Translations under genes and position numbers: made by a program
Notes under the pieces: generated by a model
Database searches by the model: none
Told to the model about the DNA's origin: nothing
The model's input: the letters and a program-made list of their open reading frames with translations, nothing else
Assembly: GCA_029213025.1 (NCBI GenBank)
Contig: JARGOZ010000017.1
Span: 1 to 64,000 of the forward strand
Direction of reading: 5' to 3'
DNA: 64,000 nucleotides
From: Verrucomicrobiales bacterium
Lineage (GTDB): Bacteria; Verrucomicrobiota; Verrucomicrobiia; Verrucomicrobiales; DEV007
Part shown: positions 2,280-52,622 of the stretch, piece after piece
How the letters are laid out: every line of letters begins with the position of its first letter
Position numbering within the stretch: the stretch's first letter is position 1

Positions 2280-4529
2280 CTAAACCGCCACAGCACTGAC
2301 CGACAGGCTGTGGACAAAGCTGCCGAGGCGGTCGCTGACGGATTCAAAGGAAATCAGTTCGCTGGCGAGATTTTGGGCCTGCTGAATTGTTTCGTCGTAG
2401 GCTCCGCGATCAGAATGCAGTCTGGTGGCATTCTTCAGGGCCGATTCGATTTCGTCGGCTTTGATGCAGGAATCCGGGAAAAGAAGCTGGTCGTTGACCC
2501 GGTTGAAGTCCGCTCCGACGAAGACTGTTCGCGACAACATGGCGTCGCCGAGGATGTCGCCTCCGTCGAGATTTTTGCCGAATCCGGTGACGAAAGAATG
2601 TTCTCTCATGAAAGCCAGGCATTCGCTGTATTTCAATGGCGTCGCGATTTCCGTGATCCGGTCCGCCGGGATTGTCAGGTTTTCGAGCACGCCGGGTTCC
2701 GGGAAATACAGGGTCACTGTGGTCCCGGTTTCAGCGACGAGACGGTTGAGAAGTTCGAGACGGCTGCGATGAAGCTTCGATTCAGGATCAAATCCACTCA
2801 CTGAGACAAATATCCCGCGCGGGCGTATAGGTGTCACTGACTCGGGATTCCACTCCGGAATTTCCACCGGGCAGGGCAGGGGAACGCTGAGATGGGGACG
2901 ACCGATTTTTAATTCATCGATGATCTCAGCCGTTCGCGAATCGACGGAAACTATACCGGAAGAAGCTCCGAGAAGCAGGTTGATCTGCCTTGAGTCCGGT
3001 GCGTTTTCCGCAAAAAGGGCTTCCAGTTGTCCTTCGCGCCAGCAAACCAATACGTCGCGGTTGGGCATATCGCGGGTAATGGCGGCGACGAGATTTTTGT
3101 CCTTTTCCATATCGCCGTGGAGCAGAACGAGTACCGGATCATCCCCTGAAGGAACGGTATCAGCATCGCGATGCATACTGCCGCGGGTGCAGGCGGCGAG
3201 CCCGTAATAACCGATCGGATTGACCCGGTCCTGATCGGGTATGCCGGCTCCGTGCTGGAAATATTGCACCAGGGAGCGCATCGCCGGGTTGATAACCCGC
3301 AGAGGCGGGCAGGTGATTTCCGCCTTTTCCTCTTCGCCGTTTTTCAGCGCTTCGAATTTGTCTTTGAGACGATGCAGAACCGCTGTCTTTCCGCTGATCA
3401 GATGGGAAAGGGAGATGCTTTCATCGTGAAGTGATTCCTGGGTTTCTTTGGACCGGGACACTTCGGCGATCTCTTTCTGGAGAGTCAGTTCCATTTTCTC
3501 CAACATCTCGCGGGATGCGTTGATGTGAGAATTGTTTTCGTTGATGATCCGCGACAGTTCTTCGGCAACCCGGTGTTTGGTCTCCAGAGTATGATCCAAC
3601 TCCCTGAGCGTTTCTTCCCGCGCGGCGATGTTTTGTTCGAGAATTTTTTGATCTTCGTTCCGCGCCACGATTCGGGTACCCAATTCCTCATAGGAGTTTT
3701 TCAAGTTCTGCAGGCCCAGTTCGAATTCATTCATTCGCGTCCGAATCGCCTTCGCTTCTTCGATGACTGCGCGGGCTTCGATGTGGCTCTGCCGGCAGTC
3801 GTTGAGAGCATTTTGCTCCTCCTCGATTTCTTTGCGCAGGACTTCCAGTTCTGCATTTAACTCCTCTTTCAGCCGGCTGGAATTTTCGTTTGCGGTATGC
3901 ACCCGCCGGTATTGGTGCTGAAGCTCGGCGCGGTCTTTTTGTAATTCTTCCAACTCCTTTTCCCCGGATTCCAGGGAGGCCAGCAGGTCGGTCTGTCTCT
4001 GTTGGGTATTTTGCAGTTCGGTTTGAACTGCCTGCAGCCTGTTTTTTTCCGATTCGTGGTGATGTTCCAGTTCAGCGATGGCTCTTTCGAGTTGCTTGAG
4101 CTCGCTTTTGCTCTCCGGAATCGCATTCAGGTCATTGGTGCGGATTTCGATCGCTTCCTCCAGCTTCGCCAGTTTTTCCGATTTGGAACTGAGGTCTTTT
4201 TCGACTGTTTCGCGCAGCAGTTTGTCCTCGGCACTTTCGCTTTGGTCAACAAATGCGGCGTTTACCGCTCCGAATTTGATTTGATCCCCGTCTTTCAAAG
4301 GGGTTTCATCGATCAGCTTACCGTTCACCGCCGTTCCGTTATCGGAATCGAGGTCGTTCAACTGGTACATGCCCTCCTCGATCCGAACCAACTCAGCGTG
4401 GTATTCCGAGACGCGGGCGTCCATGAGAGCAACGTCGTTATCGGCGTTTCTCCCGACAGTCGTTTTGCGGGTCAACAAATTATAAATTTGAGGATAACCG
4501 TTTTCGACATTGAAAATCAATTGAGGCAT
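2280..4529 (-). CDS. FHA domain / coiled-coil / glycosyltransferase-like protein (copy 1)
   Basis: 749 residues in three parts. An N-terminal FHA phosphothreonine-binding domain (about 1-95) shows TTVGRNADNDV, VSEYHAEL and DSDNGTAVNG. A long acidic coiled coil follows (about 100-400; heptads rich in Glu, Lys, Leu). The C-terminal ~330 residues have no firm assignment. Their sequence order (SFVTGFGKNLDGGDILGDAM, then a conserved FPD) resembles the nucleotide-sugar end of GT-B glycosyltransferases. No signal peptide or membrane segment is seen, so it is probably cytoplasmic. A full-length paralogue with the same architecture lies at 50394-52622. FHA suggests response to Ser/Thr phosphorylation, but no Ser/Thr kinase gene is in the window. 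Confidence 0.88.
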   Translation of the reverse strand: MPQLIFNVENGYPQIYNLLTRKTTVGRNADNDVALMDARVSEYHAELVRIEEGMYQLNDLDSDNGTAVNGKLIDETPLKDGDQIKFGAVNAAFVDQSESAEDKLLRETVEKDLSSKSEKLAKLEEAIEIRTNDLNAIPESKSELKQLERAIAELEHHHESEKNRLQAVQTELQNTQQRQTDLLASLESGEKELEELQKDRAELQHQYRRVHTANENSSRLKEELNAELEVLRKEIEEEQNALNDCRQSHIEARAVIEEAKAIRTRMNEFELGLQNLKNSYEELGTRIVARNEDQKILEQNIAAREETLRELDHTLETKHRVAEELSRIINENNSHINASREMLEKMELTLQKEIAEVSRSKETQESLHDESISLSHLISGKTAVLHRLKDKFEALKNGEEEKAEITCPPLRVINPAMRSLVQYFQHGAGIPDQDRVNPIGYYGLAACTRGSMHRDADTVPSGDDPVLVLLHGDMEKDKNLVAAITRDMPNRDVLVCWREGQLEALFAENAPDSRQINLLLGASSGIVSVDSRTAEIIDELKIGRPHLSVPLPCPVEIPEWNPESVTPIRPRGIFVSVSGFDPESKLHRSRLELLNRLVAETGTTVTLYFPEPGVLENLTIPADRITEIATPLKYSECLAFMREHSFVTGFGKNLDGGDILGDAMLSRTVFVGADFNRVNDQLLFPDSCIKADEIESALKNATRLHSDRGAYDETIQQAQNLASELISFESVSDRLGSFVHSLSVSAVAV

Positions 4530-6788: not shown

Positions 6789-6837
6789 TTGCACCTCGTC
6801 ATTCTGTATACTATAATTACCATAATTATACAGAATG
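6789..6837 (+). promoter_or_regulatory. Sigma-70-like promoter overlapped by an inverted repeat
   Basis: TTGCAC (6789-6794) and TATAAT (6812-6817) are separated by exactly 17 bp, a near-consensus housekeeping promoter. An inverted repeat with perfect 11-bp arms, CATTCTGTATA (6800-6810) and TATACAGAATG (6827-6837), spans the -10 element and ends on the start codon at 6835. The predicted transcript would have a leader of only about ten bases with no Shine-Dalgarno site. The palindrome is positioned as a repressor operator; it could also fold over the start codon. The positions are seen directly; the function is inferred. Confidence 0.65.
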
Positions 6838-9240
6838 AGCCCGTTTTTTGTTGAGCAATCCAAAGTGATTGTAAAAGATTCAGGATATGAGGTTGTCGAG
6901 TCGGCGATACCTCCAAATTTCGCCCACTTTGTCGTGCAAAAAAACGGGATTCAGGGAAGCGTTGTATGCGTCGACGATTCGAGGTGCATTACTGCTGCAA
7001 ATCTGGTTTTGGCTCAGAACCGAGCCAGGCAATCCGGAGCAGAGGTGAAAGTGATAGTTGCGAAAGTGGGAGACTTTTCCCCTGAAGTTTTACAGACCGC
7101 TGATGAGCTGGATATTCGACTAGTCAGGGCATCAGCAGTCAGAAGGGCTGAGAAGACATCTCCGGCCGACTCGCCACTGACTGAATGCAAAGTGGAAATT
7201 CCCCCTTTACGGAAAGCGTCGTCAAATTCTTCCGGTTGGAAGAAGAGGTTGGAAAAAATACCCGTGATGCCTGGGGTAGTGGTTGTCGGTTTGGTAATAG
7301 CGATTGCGATTTTCTCAGCTGTTATTTTTCGTTTGCCCCGAAGCATGGATGCCGGGAATTCAGGGGACGCGCTCTCCTTGAATAGGGCTTCAGAAGAGAA
7401 TCGTAACCTCGAACCCGGGAATTCGGCTTTGGATCAAGTTGAACAGGTAACTGTCGCCGTTAACCCACTTCAATCGACGAAAAAAAAATCGGTTCAGTCG
7501 GATTCCGGTAAACTCGATTTTTCCGATCTGAAGCCTTCCCAATTTGCTTCTAAACTATCAGAGATTTTTGATGAATCAGACGAAATGGGATTCAATTTTG
7601 TTGAAGAATTTGGAAACGATGTGAACAACATAGTTTCTGCGATATGTGAAGGTTCGTATATAAAAGATCCCACAAACCCGCACTACCTGAAAAAGGTGGG
7701 CGGAAACTTCGAGTTTAATTCCTCTTTGCAATATAATACGGCGCAATTTCTGTTACTGAAGGATAATAAACTGGTCTATATACCGGATCGTGATGAGTGC
7801 ATGCGATTGAGAGTAGAGAGGGGGGCTCACAAAAGAATAGAATTACCTGTACCTGCCGAATTACCGGGTTTGTTGAAGGACAGGGAAGGGTCTGGGAAAC
7901 GGCCTGCAACCGGTTTTTCAAGTTATCCATTGCCGATTACTGAGGCGACGCCGAATCATGCCAATTCGCGGATAGAAAAACTGAAGAAATACTACGAAAA
8001 GAATTTGCGGGTTGAAAGTCTATATATCGAGGACAAAGAGCTCGCTAAAACTCTCATCCGAATTCTGGTAAATGAGATTCCAAAATATGAATTGAGTAAA
8101 ATTGTTCCGCGATTAAACAAAATTGCGCTGACCAGAACTGATGAAGTGCCGGCGTTCGTTCTGGGGATGCTTCCCTGGATCGACAAAGATATTGCAATCG
8201 ATGCGGCCGAAGAATTGGAGCAGCACCTGGAAAGGTATTCAGATCCGCTTCTACATTTCCACCTGCAAAGTTGGAGGGCGAAAATAAAACCTTACGGCAG
8301 TTTTAAGCAGTTTAAGGATGCTGCTGTCGAACTGGTAAACCGGACCCGAGGTTTCAAAGCCTATGACGATGACGAGATAATGTGGTTGTTTTACAACGAT
8401 TTTCATCCTTCAGAGAAAGGACGGGTTTATTCGAATGTTTTCACTGACGCGCTAATATCATACAAGGAATTGAGGCCCTGGTTATTAAATTTCGCGGTAG
8501 GCGAACACCTGTCTGTCTGCTCCAGATGCCATATGCCATGGTGGGAAGATCATACGATCCAGGATTGGATCCGTCCGTTGCTGTATGCGCAGCGGGCTAA
8601 AGTGGTGTTAGAGAAAGCATGGGAATTAAAACCCGATTTGCCTGCTATCGCCGCTGCTATGATATCAGTTTCGTCGTGTTGTAGTGAAACCCCGATAAAA
8701 GACATGCGCTATTGGTTTGACCAATGTGTCGCGTTACGGTCGGACTACAGCAGGGCCTACAAATATTATATCGAAGGGATAGATCCAAAGATGCATGGAA
8801 GTATTGACGAACTTTGGGATTTTGCCCACCTGTGTGTCGGGGCGGGTCTATTTAAAACATCTATTCCAGACCAAATTTTTGAAATACAAAAAGGACTGGT
8901 TTCTGCAAAAAGAACCGATTTCCCTACTTTCTGGCGGAATATGACAGACTCGGAGATGGAATTGTTTGATGCATACTACGCCGGGAAGGCTTTCAAAGGT
9001 GTTGAGAGTTTCCGGAATGTAATTTGCTCCCATGCAACAGTCTTCTTTTATCGGTGTGGAAATGATGATTTGATGTTGAAGTGGTTCAAGCTCACCGGAG
9101 GGAATTTAGACGATGATGTTCTTTTGGAGACGGGAGAAAGTGGCTTCGGGATTATGATGAAAATTCAGGAGGTCATTTCGAATAAGAACATTGAGCAACC
9201 TGGTGAAATTTCGACCGGGCTCGAAGGGTTTACTGCTTAG
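6835..9240 (+). CDS. Membrane protein: REase-like N-domain plus DUF4034-like helical C-domain
   Basis: 801 residues. Residues ~1-105 look like a small alpha/beta domain of the Mrr/restriction-endonuclease-like fold (SGYEVVESA, then a VVCVDDS strand, then KVIVAKV), but I see no clear D/E-x-K catalytic pair. A single transmembrane segment follows at ~145-165 (MPGVVVVGLVIAIAIFSAV). The large C-terminal part is helical with a CSRCHMPWW cysteine motif and a PKMHGSIDELWDFA stretch reminiscent of DUF4034 proteins; that assignment is tentative. The next gene has the same N-domain/TM plan. Together they form an AT-rich cassette under the promoter at 6789. Biological role unknown. Confidence 0.75.
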   Translation: MSPFFVEQSKVIVKDSGYEVVESAIPPNFAHFVVQKNGIQGSVVCVDDSRCITAANLVLAQNRARQSGAEVKVIVAKVGDFSPEVLQTADELDIRLVRASAVRRAEKTSPADSPLTECKVEIPPLRKASSNSSGWKKRLEKIPVMPGVVVVGLVIAIAIFSAVIFRLPRSMDAGNSGDALSLNRASEENRNLEPGNSALDQVEQVTVAVNPLQSTKKKSVQSDSGKLDFSDLKPSQFASKLSEIFDESDEMGFNFVEEFGNDVNNIVSAICEGSYIKDPTNPHYLKKVGGNFEFNSSLQYNTAQFLLLKDNKLVYIPDRDECMRLRVERGAHKRIELPVPAELPGLLKDREGSGKRPATGFSSYPLPITEATPNHANSRIEKLKKYYEKNLRVESLYIEDKELAKTLIRILVNEIPKYELSKIVPRLNKIALTRTDEVPAFVLGMLPWIDKDIAIDAAEELEQHLERYSDPLLHFHLQSWRAKIKPYGSFKQFKDAAVELVNRTRGFKAYDDDEIMWLFYNDFHPSEKGRVYSNVFTDALISYKELRPWLLNFAVGEHLSVCSRCHMPWWEDHTIQDWIRPLLYAQRAKVVLEKAWELKPDLPAIAAAMISVSSCCSETPIKDMRYWFDQCVALRSDYSRAYKYYIEGIDPKMHGSIDELWDFAHLCVGAGLFKTSIPDQIFEIQKGLVSAKRTDFPTFWRNMTDSEMELFDAYYAGKAFKGVESFRNVICSHATVFFYRCGNDDLMLKWFKLTGGNLDDDVLLETGESGFGIMMKIQEVISNKNIEQPGEISTGLEGFTA

Positions 9241-9280
9241 TCAAGTCTTGTCTTTCTTATATTTTTTCGGTTACATATTG

Positions 9281-10897
9281 ATGCAAAAGAATTTTTCAGA
9301 AGAAGAGGTAAAGCAAGTATATCGGGCGGGCGGATATGATGTGTTTGATGCACCGCCCGAAAGTGGATTCAGTCTGATCTGTCGGCCACGGCAAGCGGGT
9401 GCGTTGAAAAATATAGCAGTGCTGTTGATTTGCCGAAGAGAGGTAATGCCTGGATTGGAGAAGTTGAAATCCCTGTTGCATGTAGCGAAAGCCAACGCCG
9501 GGAGTGTTGATCTGGTGAGTTTCCTTCCGCTGTCGAAGGAGATTCAGGCGTTTGCTGAGAATGAGGCAGATTTGACGATAGTGGAATACAAAACTCATCC
9601 GGATCCGTTAGGGTCGAATGTTGCGGGAAATAGTTCAATGGCACATCAACTGCCTGATTCAAATATATATCAAAATTCAGAATGTCCGACCGGGCAACAA
9701 AAGGGGGATAGAAACAGGGATAGTAAGAGAGGCGTGTCCAAAATCCATATCGCTATGGCCGGGGCTGCGGCCGTATTGGTTGCAGCCTTATTTGCGGTTG
9801 CTCACCATTTTTTTAATACGGGAACAAATTTGGTGGAAGTCAAAAGGCCCAAAGGGCCTTTGATTAAGCAGGCTGATGTAGTTTTACCGGAATCCGGATA
9901 CTTCACAGTAACCGAGGTCTTTTCCGACAGCATGTATCGCGACTATCCGCCACGGAGGCAGTCGCAAATCTTCTACCAGTCGATGCTTGCACTGAAGGAA
10001 AAGGGGCACCTCTTCATTAAGGCTCCCCGGTCTATGGATAAAAACACTCAAAACGCGATTTTTTCGTTTCAGGGAATGGAACAGATATCTGAGTCGGGGA
10101 AATTGGATGATTATATGATGCATCTTTTAGGATTGGTCGATCTGCCTCTGCAATACGTGGCGACTCTCAATGAGAATTTTGTGAATCAATTGGAATCGGA
10201 AATGATTTGGGTCCCCCCTGGAACATTCGTCATACATGAATCGAATCCACCGGTGGAAGTTACCCTGACCAGAGGATATTGGATTGGATCAAAGGAAGTG
10301 ACCCAGAGAGAGTGGAGTATGATCATGGGGACATCTATTGATGAATTGTCCGCAGGCTCCCATCAATCCCATAGACCGGACGAAGTGGGCGGAGATTTCC
10401 CTGTTTCATTCGTCAGCTGGGATGATGCAAAGGAATTCTGTCGAAAACTAACGGAGGAATTACAAGGTGAAATTCCGGAAGGCTGGTGTTATGACCTGCC
10501 GTCAGAAGCGCAGTGGGATCGTGCGCGTTATGCGGAGTCTGTTTATTCATACAAAAAAACTCAAGGCTGGACCAGCGAAAATTCAGAGAAAAGGATCCGT
10601 CCGGTGGGAACTCTGGAGCCGAACGCATGGGGGATTTATGATATGTTAGGGAATGTTTCCGAATGGGTGGCGGATTACTACATATATTCCCTGGATAAAG
10701 AGTCGCCCCTGATTGATCCATTCATTGATAAGCCGGAGATTCAATATGTGAACGGGAATCCTTATGAAAATCGGGACAGAGTTTACCTGGGAGGTTCGGT
10801 TGATAAGTATCCTTCCTCACGTTTGAGCGGCCATCCGGAAGTGCGGGAGCGGGAAATAGGGTTTCGGGTTGTCCTGATTCCGCGAAGGAATAGCTGA
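9281..10897 (+). CDS. Membrane protein: REase-like N-domain plus formylglycine-generating-enzyme-like C-domain
   Basis: 538 residues from ATG 9281. A longer frame to 9191 would overlap the previous gene by 50 bp and add an unrelated hydrophobic stretch. The N-domain (YRAGGYDVFDAPP, VLLICRRE) aligns by eye with that of the upstream protein. A transmembrane segment (~residues 160-185, HIAMAGAAAVLVAALFAVAH) follows. The C-terminal ~230 residues are an FGE-sulfatase/SUMF1 fold: MIWVPPGTFVI, GYWIGSKEVTQREW, YDLPSEAQWDRARY, WGIYDMLGNVSEWV, GFRVV. The catalytic cysteines of true formylglycine-generating enzymes near the C-terminus are absent (the stretch reads GGSVDKYPSSRLSG), so it is probably a binding or sensing domain. 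Confidence 0.85.
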   Translation: MQKNFSEEEVKQVYRAGGYDVFDAPPESGFSLICRPRQAGALKNIAVLLICRREVMPGLEKLKSLLHVAKANAGSVDLVSFLPLSKEIQAFAENEADLTIVEYKTHPDPLGSNVAGNSSMAHQLPDSNIYQNSECPTGQQKGDRNRDSKRGVSKIHIAMAGAAAVLVAALFAVAHHFFNTGTNLVEVKRPKGPLIKQADVVLPESGYFTVTEVFSDSMYRDYPPRRQSQIFYQSMLALKEKGHLFIKAPRSMDKNTQNAIFSFQGMEQISESGKLDDYMMHLLGLVDLPLQYVATLNENFVNQLESEMIWVPPGTFVIHESNPPVEVTLTRGYWIGSKEVTQREWSMIMGTSIDELSAGSHQSHRPDEVGGDFPVSFVSWDDAKEFCRKLTEELQGEIPEGWCYDLPSEAQWDRARYAESVYSYKKTQGWTSENSEKRIRPVGTLEPNAWGIYDMLGNVSEWVADYYIYSLDKESPLIDPFIDKPEIQYVNGNPYENRDRVYLGGSVDKYPSSRLSGHPEVREREIGFRVVLIPRRNS

Positions 10898-44855: not shown

Positions 44856-44869
44856 GAAATTATAATTTC
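44856..44869. promoter_or_regulatory. 14-bp AT-rich palindrome between divergent genes
   Basis: GAAATTATAATTTC is a perfect palindrome 26 bp before the metallophosphoesterase ATG. It contains TATAAT (44861-44866) that could be a -10 box, but no good -35 was found at the right distance. It might be an operator for the divergent pair. Confidence 0.35.
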
Positions 44870-44894
44870 CATAAAATAATCCTGTTCTGAATTT

Positions 44895-50393: not shown

Positions 50394-52622
50394 CTACTTC
50401 GCGGGAAGGGATTGAATAAAGCCGGCCAGCTGATCGCTTACGCTTTCGAATGAGATGAGTTGGGCTGCCATGCTCTGTGAACGTTCCATCGACTCCAGCC
50501 AGGCATTCCGGTCCGAATGCAACTTCAGCGTGTCTTCCAGGGCTTTGTCGATGTTGCCTGCGGCAATGGAGCAGTCGGGAAACAGGAGTTGCTCTACGGT
50601 ATCCTCCGCATCAGCCCCGATAAATACGGTCCGTGTCAGAACCGCATCTCCGATAATATCCGCACCGGCAAAGTTCTTTCCGAAGCCGGATACGAACCGG
50701 TGTTTGCCGACCAGTTTCAGGTAGTCCGTGTAGCTACTGGAAAACTCCGGTTTCCTGACCAATTCGCCCGGGATGCTTAGCCCTCTGAGGCGGTCCCTGT
50801 CTTCGGCGAACAGAGTCACAAAGGAACGGGTTTGTTTGGCAAATTTCTCTATCAGTTCCAACCGTTTGCCATGGACGGGGGAGTTGGGATCAAAGCCGTC
50901 GCCACTGACAAAAACACCGCCCGTTCCCTCTGATGTCGGCTGCGAAAAATCCCAGTCCGGGAAATCGACCGGACACGGCACCGCGATATGCAGAAAGGGA
51001 AGATTGGATTCGCTCTGTTTCAGAAACCGCGCCGTAGCATTATCGGTACACACAATACCGGAAACGCCGTCGGCAAGCAGGGACATATCAAAGCCCTGCC
51101 GAAACTGCCCTTCCGCGGGACAAACCAGAAGCATACTTCCCGGCGCGACCGATGCGATGTTCTGTCGGTCCTTTTCTGTATCTCCGGTGAGCAGCAGGAT
51201 AACCGGATCACCCTCCGATAAAATTGAATCCGCATCCCGGTGCATACTGCCGCGGGTGCAGGCGGCGAGAGCGTGCGGTCCGACCGGCTCGAATTTTTCC
51301 TCTCCCGGCATTCCCGCGCCGTGGTGGAAGTAGTGAACCAGAGAACTCATGCCGGGATTGACAAGGCGCACAGGCGGGCAGGCGGATTCAACCGTTCCCC
51401 GGGTGGAAATTCGATCTTTGAGACGTTGAAGAACTATAGATTTGTCACTGACGATTCGGTTCAATGACAGGCTTTCACTATCCAGAGAATTCTTTACTTT
51501 CAGCGATTTCTCTACTTCGCTGCGACCTGCTTCGATCTTCGCTTCCACCTCGGAAAGCTTACTTCCGGCGGAGCGGATTTGTTCTTCGCTACCGGCTACT
51601 TTCCTGTCGAGTTCTGCAACCGTCTTTTCCTTCCTGCCGATCATTCCGGCCAGCTTTTCGGATTCTGCAATTGCGTCGGTGATTTTGGTTCGATAGTCTT
51701 CCAGAGACTTCTTTCTGTCGGCGATTTTGTTTTCGAGTTCCTCGCAGTCTTTATTTCGTTTTTCCAGTTCAGCTTTCTTATCGCCTATTCCCGTCTCGAC
51801 CATTTTTGCTTCGTGAAAAATCGCTTCCGCCTGTTTCGATTTTCGGCGGTTCTCTTCCAGTTCAGCCTCGGACTTTTTGATTTTTTCCTGAAAATCCGCC
51901 TTTTTCTTTTCGATATCAGCGGATAATTCGGCGATTTCTTTAGTCAGTTTTTCTTTCTGTTTGATCGAGTTATCGAGGTCCAGCTCGCCGTAGAGTTTTT
52001 CGCCGGCGACAATTTTCCGGCTCAGTTCCTCACAGGCATCTTTCCGGGTGTTATATTCGATCTCCAGCTGGTCGGCTTTCTTTTCGAAATCCCGCGCTTC
52101 GGCAATGACTTTTTCCAGCTCCCCGGATTCTTTCCGGTTTTTCCTGAGTTCCTCCTTTGCTGTTTCCAGTTTTTTTATGAGATGCTCCAGTTCCCCGCCA
52201 AGCTCTTTTTTCTGCTTGAAGGCCTTTTCCATCTCGAACCTCGCCATCCGGGTGTCATTCTCGATAAGCTTGAGGTTGTTTCGCTCGATCTCACTCTTAC
52301 GCATCAGGCTTTTTACCCCCTGAGTATCATCCTGCGGGGCTTCGAATACCAGGCGGATCGCGCCCATCTTGATATTGTCGCCGTCTTTTAACACCGCTTT
52401 TTTGATCTTTTCGCCGTTTACGTAGGTGCCGTTTTGGCTTTTTAGATCTTCAATTCGGACCACGCCATCGTCACCTTTTAAAATCTCAGCGTGGAAAGCT
52501 GATACTGACGAGGGCCTTACAACGATATCGTTATCTTTGCTTCTACCGAAGGTGGTTTTACCGATCAACAACTGATGGAATCGAGGATATTCATTTTCTA
52601 CGTTGATGATCAAGCGGGACAT
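50394..52622 (-). CDS. FHA domain / coiled-coil / glycosyltransferase-like protein (copy 2)
   Basis: 742 residues, collinear with the protein at 2280-4529. FHA domain (~1-95: TTFGRSKDNDIVVRP, VSAFHAEIL, DLKSQNGTYVNGE), long coiled coil (~100-400), and the same C-terminal domain (SSLVHYFHHGAGMPGEEKFE, ACTRGSMHRDADSIL, RFVSGFGKNFAGADIIGDAV). The best-conserved C-terminal stretches between the copies are SLVxYFxHGAGxP, LAACTRGSMHRDAD and ISFESVSDxLxxF, which suggests that this domain carries the main function. No neighbour suggests a pathway. An exported GH43/32-like protein precedes it. Confidence 0.88.
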   Translation of the reverse strand: MSRLIINVENEYPRFHQLLIGKTTFGRSKDNDIVVRPSSVSAFHAEILKGDDGVVRIEDLKSQNGTYVNGEKIKKAVLKDGDNIKMGAIRLVFEAPQDDTQGVKSLMRKSEIERNNLKLIENDTRMARFEMEKAFKQKKELGGELEHLIKKLETAKEELRKNRKESGELEKVIAEARDFEKKADQLEIEYNTRKDACEELSRKIVAGEKLYGELDLDNSIKQKEKLTKEIAELSADIEKKKADFQEKIKKSEAELEENRRKSKQAEAIFHEAKMVETGIGDKKAELEKRNKDCEELENKIADRKKSLEDYRTKITDAIAESEKLAGMIGRKEKTVAELDRKVAGSEEQIRSAGSKLSEVEAKIEAGRSEVEKSLKVKNSLDSESLSLNRIVSDKSIVLQRLKDRISTRGTVESACPPVRLVNPGMSSLVHYFHHGAGMPGEEKFEPVGPHALAACTRGSMHRDADSILSEGDPVILLLTGDTEKDRQNIASVAPGSMLLVCPAEGQFRQGFDMSLLADGVSGIVCTDNATARFLKQSESNLPFLHIAVPCPVDFPDWDFSQPTSEGTGGVFVSGDGFDPNSPVHGKRLELIEKFAKQTRSFVTLFAEDRDRLRGLSIPGELVRKPEFSSSYTDYLKLVGKHRFVSGFGKNFAGADIIGDAVLTRTVFIGADAEDTVEQLLFPDCSIAAGNIDKALEDTLKLHSDRNAWLESMERSQSMAAQLISFESVSDQLAGFIQSLPAK

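Follow-up and report, generated by a model that had tools for sequence, protein, structure and literature searches.

Adjacent genes of a Verrucomicrobiales bacterium encode predicted single-pass membrane proteins with a shared, inactive Mrr-type N-terminal domain

Two adjacent genes of a Verrucomicrobiales bacterium were found to encode proteins, P0001 and P0002, whose shared N-terminal domain (hereafter the head) is a divergent Mrr-type PD-(D/E)XK fold, and whose predicted outer parts differ. The reading that we favor, tentatively and at somewhat less than even confidence, is that of a cooperating receptor-adaptor pair with N-in/C-out topology, in which the dead-nuclease heads would bind cytoplasmic partners. 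The genes lie in the stretch of DNA that was analyzed here (64,000 nt, the window); its contig is 65.5 kb long, and the genome has 7.9 Mb. The original prediction for this locus held in part: a pair of proteins that share an inactive restriction endonuclease (REase)-like intracellular domain was upheld, and obligate pairing and a defense role were not.

The gene pair and its shared head

The genes, heads, and transmembrane (TM) segments were assigned as follows (all on the + strand).

6835..9240, +: P0001 gene (gene 1), ORF of 801 aa; dead Mrr-like N-domain, TM segment, pilin-like domain, and alpha solenoid
9281..10897, +: P0002 gene (gene 2), ORF of 538 aa; dead Mrr-like N-domain, TM segment, and FGE-like domain
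6835..7164, +: P0001 N-domain (aa 1-110), PD-(D/E)XK (Mrr-like) with catalytic residues lost; by leave-out HMM, model, VIA-align, and motif columns
9281..9604, +: P0002 N-domain (aa 1-108), same Mrr-like family with catalytic residues lost; by leave-out HMM and motif columns
7273..7329, +: P0001 TM segment (aa 147-165); by hydropathy and charge
9743..9799, +: P0002 TM segment (aa 155-173); by hydropathy and charge

The two genes are co-directional and separated by a 40-nt gap. An alternative start for P0002 (TTG 9191) would give a protein of 568 aa rather than the 538 aa from ATG 9281; the latter agrees with the N-domain start in relatives in the family alignment. Hydropathy gave one clear TM segment in each protein, as originally claimed for two neighboring membrane-protein genes. 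Given that positive charge is greater on the N-terminal side of the TM segment in both, an N-in/C-out topology is predicted, from hydropathy and charge alone. The pair is also AT-richer than its surroundings, as had been noted: GC is 0.451 for P0001 and 0.470 for P0002, against a mean of 0.526 (sd 0.029) for the window genes. These are the second and third lowest values among the 53 window genes, and only a TIR-TM gene at 934-1959 is lower.

The common N-domain was not detected by pairwise BLASTP of P0001 against P0002, and identity between the two domains is 17%. The family alignment was drawn from relatives in the same genus and family, and a leave-out HMM was built from eight relatives with P0001 and P0002 excluded (the PF04471 members L025 and L057 were included). 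With E-values computed for a database size of 10,000, this HMM recovered P0001 at E 9e-4 and P0002 at E 3e-3, the best unrelated ORF standing at approximately 18, and both ranked directly behind the family members and a genuine Mrr protein. The PF04471 (Mrr_cat) profile itself matched neither P0001 nor P0002 at E ≤ 10; relatives L025, L057, L136, and L137 scored above its cut-off. These comparisons point to common descent of both N-domains with the Mrr_cat family, and the claim that the two proteins begin with the same REase-like domain was thus borne out by the HMM.

Modeled with AlphaFold from 16 rows, the P0001 head (pLDDT 81) has the order alpha-beta-beta-beta-alpha-beta-alpha-beta. The highest-Z VIA-align matches of this model were PD-(D/E)XK proteins: AF1548 (Z 11.0), EndoMS (10.1), RPB5 (9.3), AspBHI (9.3), Can2, MspJI, XisH, and FokI. 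Both RPB5 and XisH are members of the PD-(D/E)XK fold class. The predicted head therefore matches the solved PD-(D/E)XK alpha-beta-beta-beta-alpha-beta core, in agreement with the REase-like fold first proposed. Foldseek also gave matches to HIV integrase for this head, which had TM-scores of approximately 0.3 and were set aside.

The catalytic D ... (Q/E)xK is absent from P0001 and P0002, which confirms the earlier remark that no D/E-x-K could be seen. In the aligned motif columns the catalytic Asp position holds N in P0001 and S in P0002, and the D/QxK position reads VCV and LLI, respectively. The QxK lysine is missing in 15 of the 16 aligned sequences; its sole keeper, L134, is an active-type protein (two TM segments, Mrr, Zn-ribbon) encoded in the same genome as the pair, and every relative with the one-TM layout lacks the lysine. 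Heads of the one-TM proteins are acidic (pI 4.2-5.8), so that protein is a more likely head partner than DNA, and the partner is probably a protein on this sequence property. Head-to-head identity across the family is 11-28%, and the P0001 and P0002 heads are not mutual nearest relatives (the tree is poorly resolved). With 17% identity and no nearest-relative link between the two heads, recent tandem duplication was rejected as the origin of the pair, and specific head-to-head contact between P0001 and P0002 is an assumption.

Outer domains and the arrangement of relatives

Three outer domains were assigned beyond the TM segments.

7543..7785, +: P0001 pilin-like globular domain (aa 237-317); by HMM match
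7960..9186, +: P0001 helical solenoid (about aa 376-784), TPR/DUF4034-like; by homologs, model, and the link to L141
10196..10873, +: P0002 FGE-like (C-type-lectin-type) domain (aa 306-531), with no C-x4-C copper site; by PF03781 and PDB matches

The pilin-like domain was overlooked in the original prediction. It was located with an HMM built from the prepilin L110, a canonical prepilin with a leader and an N_methyl match, and two dead-Mrr-TM relatives (L135 and L136); this HMM finds P0001 at E ~1e-6, the next unrelated ORF being at ~6. No N_methyl or prepilin-leader profile matched P0001.

The C-terminal part of P0001 had been described as a helical DUF4034-like domain. Its helical nature is upheld by a model of 22 helices (pLDDT 82), for which TPR proteins lead the Foldseek matches, each weak on its own, and the name by a distant kinship with L141, a protein that scores above cut-off for both TPR and DUF4034; P0001 itself has no Pfam match, is recognized by no TPR or DUF4034 (PF13226) model, and the PF13226 profile has no match in its own genome. 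Scans of the full-length P0001 protein against Pfam, NCBIfam, and PADLOC were uninformative, and a search of the genome contigs with P0001 alone gave no matches. This C-terminal domain is shared with proteins from the same genus and from other families in the order.

The FGE-like assignment of P0002 was confirmed by PF03781 (E 4e-30; 105.6 bits against a cut-off of 23.3). Catalytic FGE binds copper through a cysteine pair. The corresponding C-x4-C pair near the C-terminus is not found in P0002, whose domain cysteines are Cys 387 and Cys 403 only. FGE is a frequent C-terminal module in this genome, where P0002 has 31 matches at E ≤ 1. Two FGE proteins of the same genome (L034, 3680-5941; L035, 2187-5771) appear, on a reading of their sequences, to be TM + caspase-like + FGE and TIR + NTPase + FGE.

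With a threshold of E ≤ 0.001 for a head match, heads were found in 8 of 75 genomes of the Verrucomicrobiales family. The arrangements vary. At the window locus a solenoid gene is paired with an FGE gene; genome G026, from another species, has two adjacent head-TM-solenoid genes, which provides the adjacency elsewhere that the original prediction called for. Genome G005, of the same genus, encodes a single protein of 1263 aa (L025) that comprises dead Mrr, TM, solenoid, and FGE. Single head genes occur in G015, G030 (two loci), G061 (two loci), G063, and G078, the TM segment of the G015 copy scoring under the hydropathy threshold used, and G000:C155 holds one head-gene copy that is broken by the contig end. 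Seven of the 11 loci have a single gene, so that obligate pairing is not supported; because most relatives stand alone, pairing is not required for the module to work. The G005 fusion, together with the adjacent pair in G026, makes the P0001-P0002 partnership well supported and upholds the proposal that the two different outer domains are functionally linked. As sequence evidence, the fusion is the strongest indication of joint action by the outer parts of the two proteins.

The head and TM also precede a transglutaminase domain (L056), DUF4190 (L055), and pilin-like domains (L135 and L136); most relatives have no pilin-like domain. In L135 (5521-9824) a T2SSF gene, a dead-Mrr-TM-pilin-like gene, and an M48 peptidase gene stand in series, the T2SSF gene (PF00482) immediately upstream of the second. 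In another family of the order (L060, 4630-5577), a bactofilin-like domain is attached to an Mrr-like domain. Among 387 genomes drawn from the phylum, matches were obtained in two besides the pair's own, both to active-type 2-TM Mrr + Zn-ribbon proteins, so that the dead form looks confined to the family within this sample. The publicly named relatives are from Verrucomicrobiales MAGs (PAAG01000008 and CAJXQE010000150), which are presumably marine, going by the isolate name NAT23.

Proposed role, alternative readings, and the promoter motif

Under the favored reading, P0001 and P0002 would be cooperating single-pass inner-membrane proteins with the N-terminus in the cytoplasm and the C-terminus beyond the inner membrane. 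In the cell envelope, the solenoid and the FGE (C-type-lectin-type) fold may bind ligands, be they proteins, peptides, or glycans. The heads would no longer cut DNA and would serve as interaction modules, either joining P0001 to P0002 or recruiting a cytoplasmic partner, and binding outside could thereby be relayed or anchored inside. A sensing role is plausible for the predicted pair. The dead-Mrr + TM unit may represent a reusable module of the lineage to which various outer domains are attached. Its broader form, a lineage-specific class of TM receptors in which a dead-REase signaling or adaptor part is combined with exchangeable outer sensors (solenoid, lectin-like FGE, pilin-like, transglutaminase), paired or fused, is possible, and we consider it distinctly more doubtful than an even call.

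An alternative role in envelope assembly or secretion would make the pair part of a type II secretion or type IV pilus-like apparatus. The pilin-like domain would then serve in assembly, and the dead-Mrr head would replace the prepilin leader as a plug or docking domain on the cytoplasmic side. The pilin-like domain of P0001 and the position of the L135 gene (dead Mrr, TM, pilin-like) directly downstream of a T2SSF gene are in its favor, but the genes next to the window pair include none for a T2SS or pilus, the pilin-like domain is missing from most relatives, and FGE and transglutaminase domains would be unusual in such machines. We regard this role as unlikely.

Less likely again is plain anchoring, in which the heads would be vestigial Mrr remains that fix the outer domains in the membrane and pass on no signal. 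The very high divergence of the heads and the many different outer domains found on the dead-Mrr + TM module would suit such remains; however, the fold core is kept despite this divergence (P0001 model pLDDT 81), and a mere anchor would not need that core.

The defense device first suggested for this locus was not supported and is a minority reading. In its explicit form, an anti-phage or conflict system, sensing would fall to the FGE-like domain, and the dead nuclease would act as an immune adaptor or a decoy, a role that has been suggested for inactive enzyme domains of NTP-dependent conflict systems (PMC7159879). Conflict systems do repeatedly contain inactive enzyme domains and FGE-type C-type-lectin folds (PMC7159879, PMC10907252), the distribution among the family genomes is patchy (8 of 75), and a likewise low-GC TIR-TM gene lies 5 kb upstream. 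Against this, PADLOC models matched neither the pair nor three relatives, the relatives have no surrounding defense islands by inspection, and neither P0001 nor P0002 has a recognized NTPase or catalytic effector. A lectin-type sensor beyond the membrane would moreover be blind to intracellular phage events, and there is no sign of a diversity-generating template, since no second copy of the P0002 FGE 3' end occurs within the window. This reading is improbable. Diversification of the P0002 FGE by a diversity-generating retroelement (DGR) was likewise set aside as unsupported, there being no near-repeat of its 3' end in the window. By inspection, the neighboring genes of the pair and its relatives are ordinary, and the sole defense-like neighbor of the pair is the TIR-TM gene. 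This gene (934-1959) has a TIR domain, one TM segment, and a C-terminal part of ~160 aa, and at GC 0.439 it is the most AT-rich gene of the window. Two large proteins of similar layout with an N-terminal FHA domain are encoded 46 kb apart at 2280-4529 and 50394-52622.

Two elements were assigned at the start of P0001.

6800..6837, no strand: imperfect palindrome CATTCTGTATACTATAATTACCATAATTATACAGAATG, which overlaps the start codon of P0001; taken in full, it occurs once in the genome
6812..6825, +: promoter/operator motif TATAATTACCATAA, inside the palindrome CATTCTGTATACTATAATTACCATAATTATACAGAATG; lineage-wide

The motif TATAATTACCATAA ends 9 nt ahead of the P0001 ATG, and the form TTATAATTWCCATAA occurs in the window at 6812-6825 and at 44861-44874. 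Exact TATAATTNCCATAA has 16 sites in the genome, and the looser TATAATNNCCATAA gives just 32 one-mismatch matches there, despite 36 times more one-mismatch than exact forms. Across 34 genomes of the genus, exact TATAATTNCCATAA is present in about 200 copies and a reversed control in 0; where the gene start was recognized, sites lie mostly 15-35 nt ahead of the start codon. The looser TATAATNNCCATAA also stands before head genes in G005, G026, and G030, and precedes 4 of 10 relatives, from four species (binomial ~7e-9 under a rough genome-wide rate). An independent promoter had been claimed for the pair: a conserved, non-chance motif does precede the P0001 ATG, whereas sigma-70-like sites occur at chance level (6 against 6.6). 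TTATAATTWCCATAA is apparently an undescribed promoter or operator element of the whole lineage. Given that genomes in which no dead-Mrr gene was detected commonly have it too, the motif reads as a general regulatory element and gives no evidence of head-DNA binding. The overlap with the P0001 start and the recurrence of TATAATNNCCATAA before relatives had lent appeal to a membrane-tethered, ToxR-like transcription regulator, in which the promoter palindrome would be the binding site of the dead-Mrr head. This reading was mostly dropped and is very improbable: a motif so common where no head gene was detected must be read by another factor or by the polymerase, and the heads, being acidic, also show no helix-turn-helix.

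Comparison with known systems

The closest enzymes are those of the Mrr_cat family (PF04471), including the 2-TM + Mrr_cat + Zn-ribbon proteins L134, L144, and L145 from the pair's own and other phylum genomes, with which P0001 and P0002 have in common the N-domain fold and sequence kinship. They differ in lacking the catalytic Asp, the QxK lysine, and the Zn ribbon, and in having one TM segment after the domain (the 2-TM Mrr proteins have two before it) and large outer domains. NA-iREase1 (PF22722, NACHT-associated inactive restriction endonuclease) is likewise an inactive, REase-like, non-catalytic module; in contrast to it, P0001 and P0002 are predicted to be membrane-anchored and have no NACHT or NTPase partner. 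Its profile matched neither protein, and L137 scored 24.9 bits, under the cut-off of 27.

The outer parts were compared in the same way. The C-terminal domain of P0002 is like FGE/SUMF1-like proteins (PF03781; GldK/PorK, PvdO, and the DGR-diversified TvpA), but it has no copper-site cysteine pair and is joined to a dead-Mrr head and a TM segment; unlike the case of TvpA, no diversity-generating element was seen for P0002 in the template-repeat check of the window. The P0001 solenoid is a distant relative of DUF4034/TPR proteins (PF13226, PF13424) with a TPR-like fold, although P0001 itself matches none of their models. Similarly, aa 237-317 of P0001 resemble the globular part of a prepilin of the same genus, but in contrast to type IV pilins and pseudopilins there is no prepilin leader, and the TM segment follows a cytoplasmic head and stands ~70 aa before the pilin-like domain.

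Inactive enzyme domains and REase-fold domains have been described in cytoplasmic conflict systems, but in the papers searched here we found no account of a single-pass membrane protein whose inner half is a dead Mrr-type domain. If the head is a signaling or adaptor part, the pair would represent a new design of bacterial transmembrane receptor, for which the pair, the tandem pair, the fusion, and the single genes would offer a ready set of variants for experiments.
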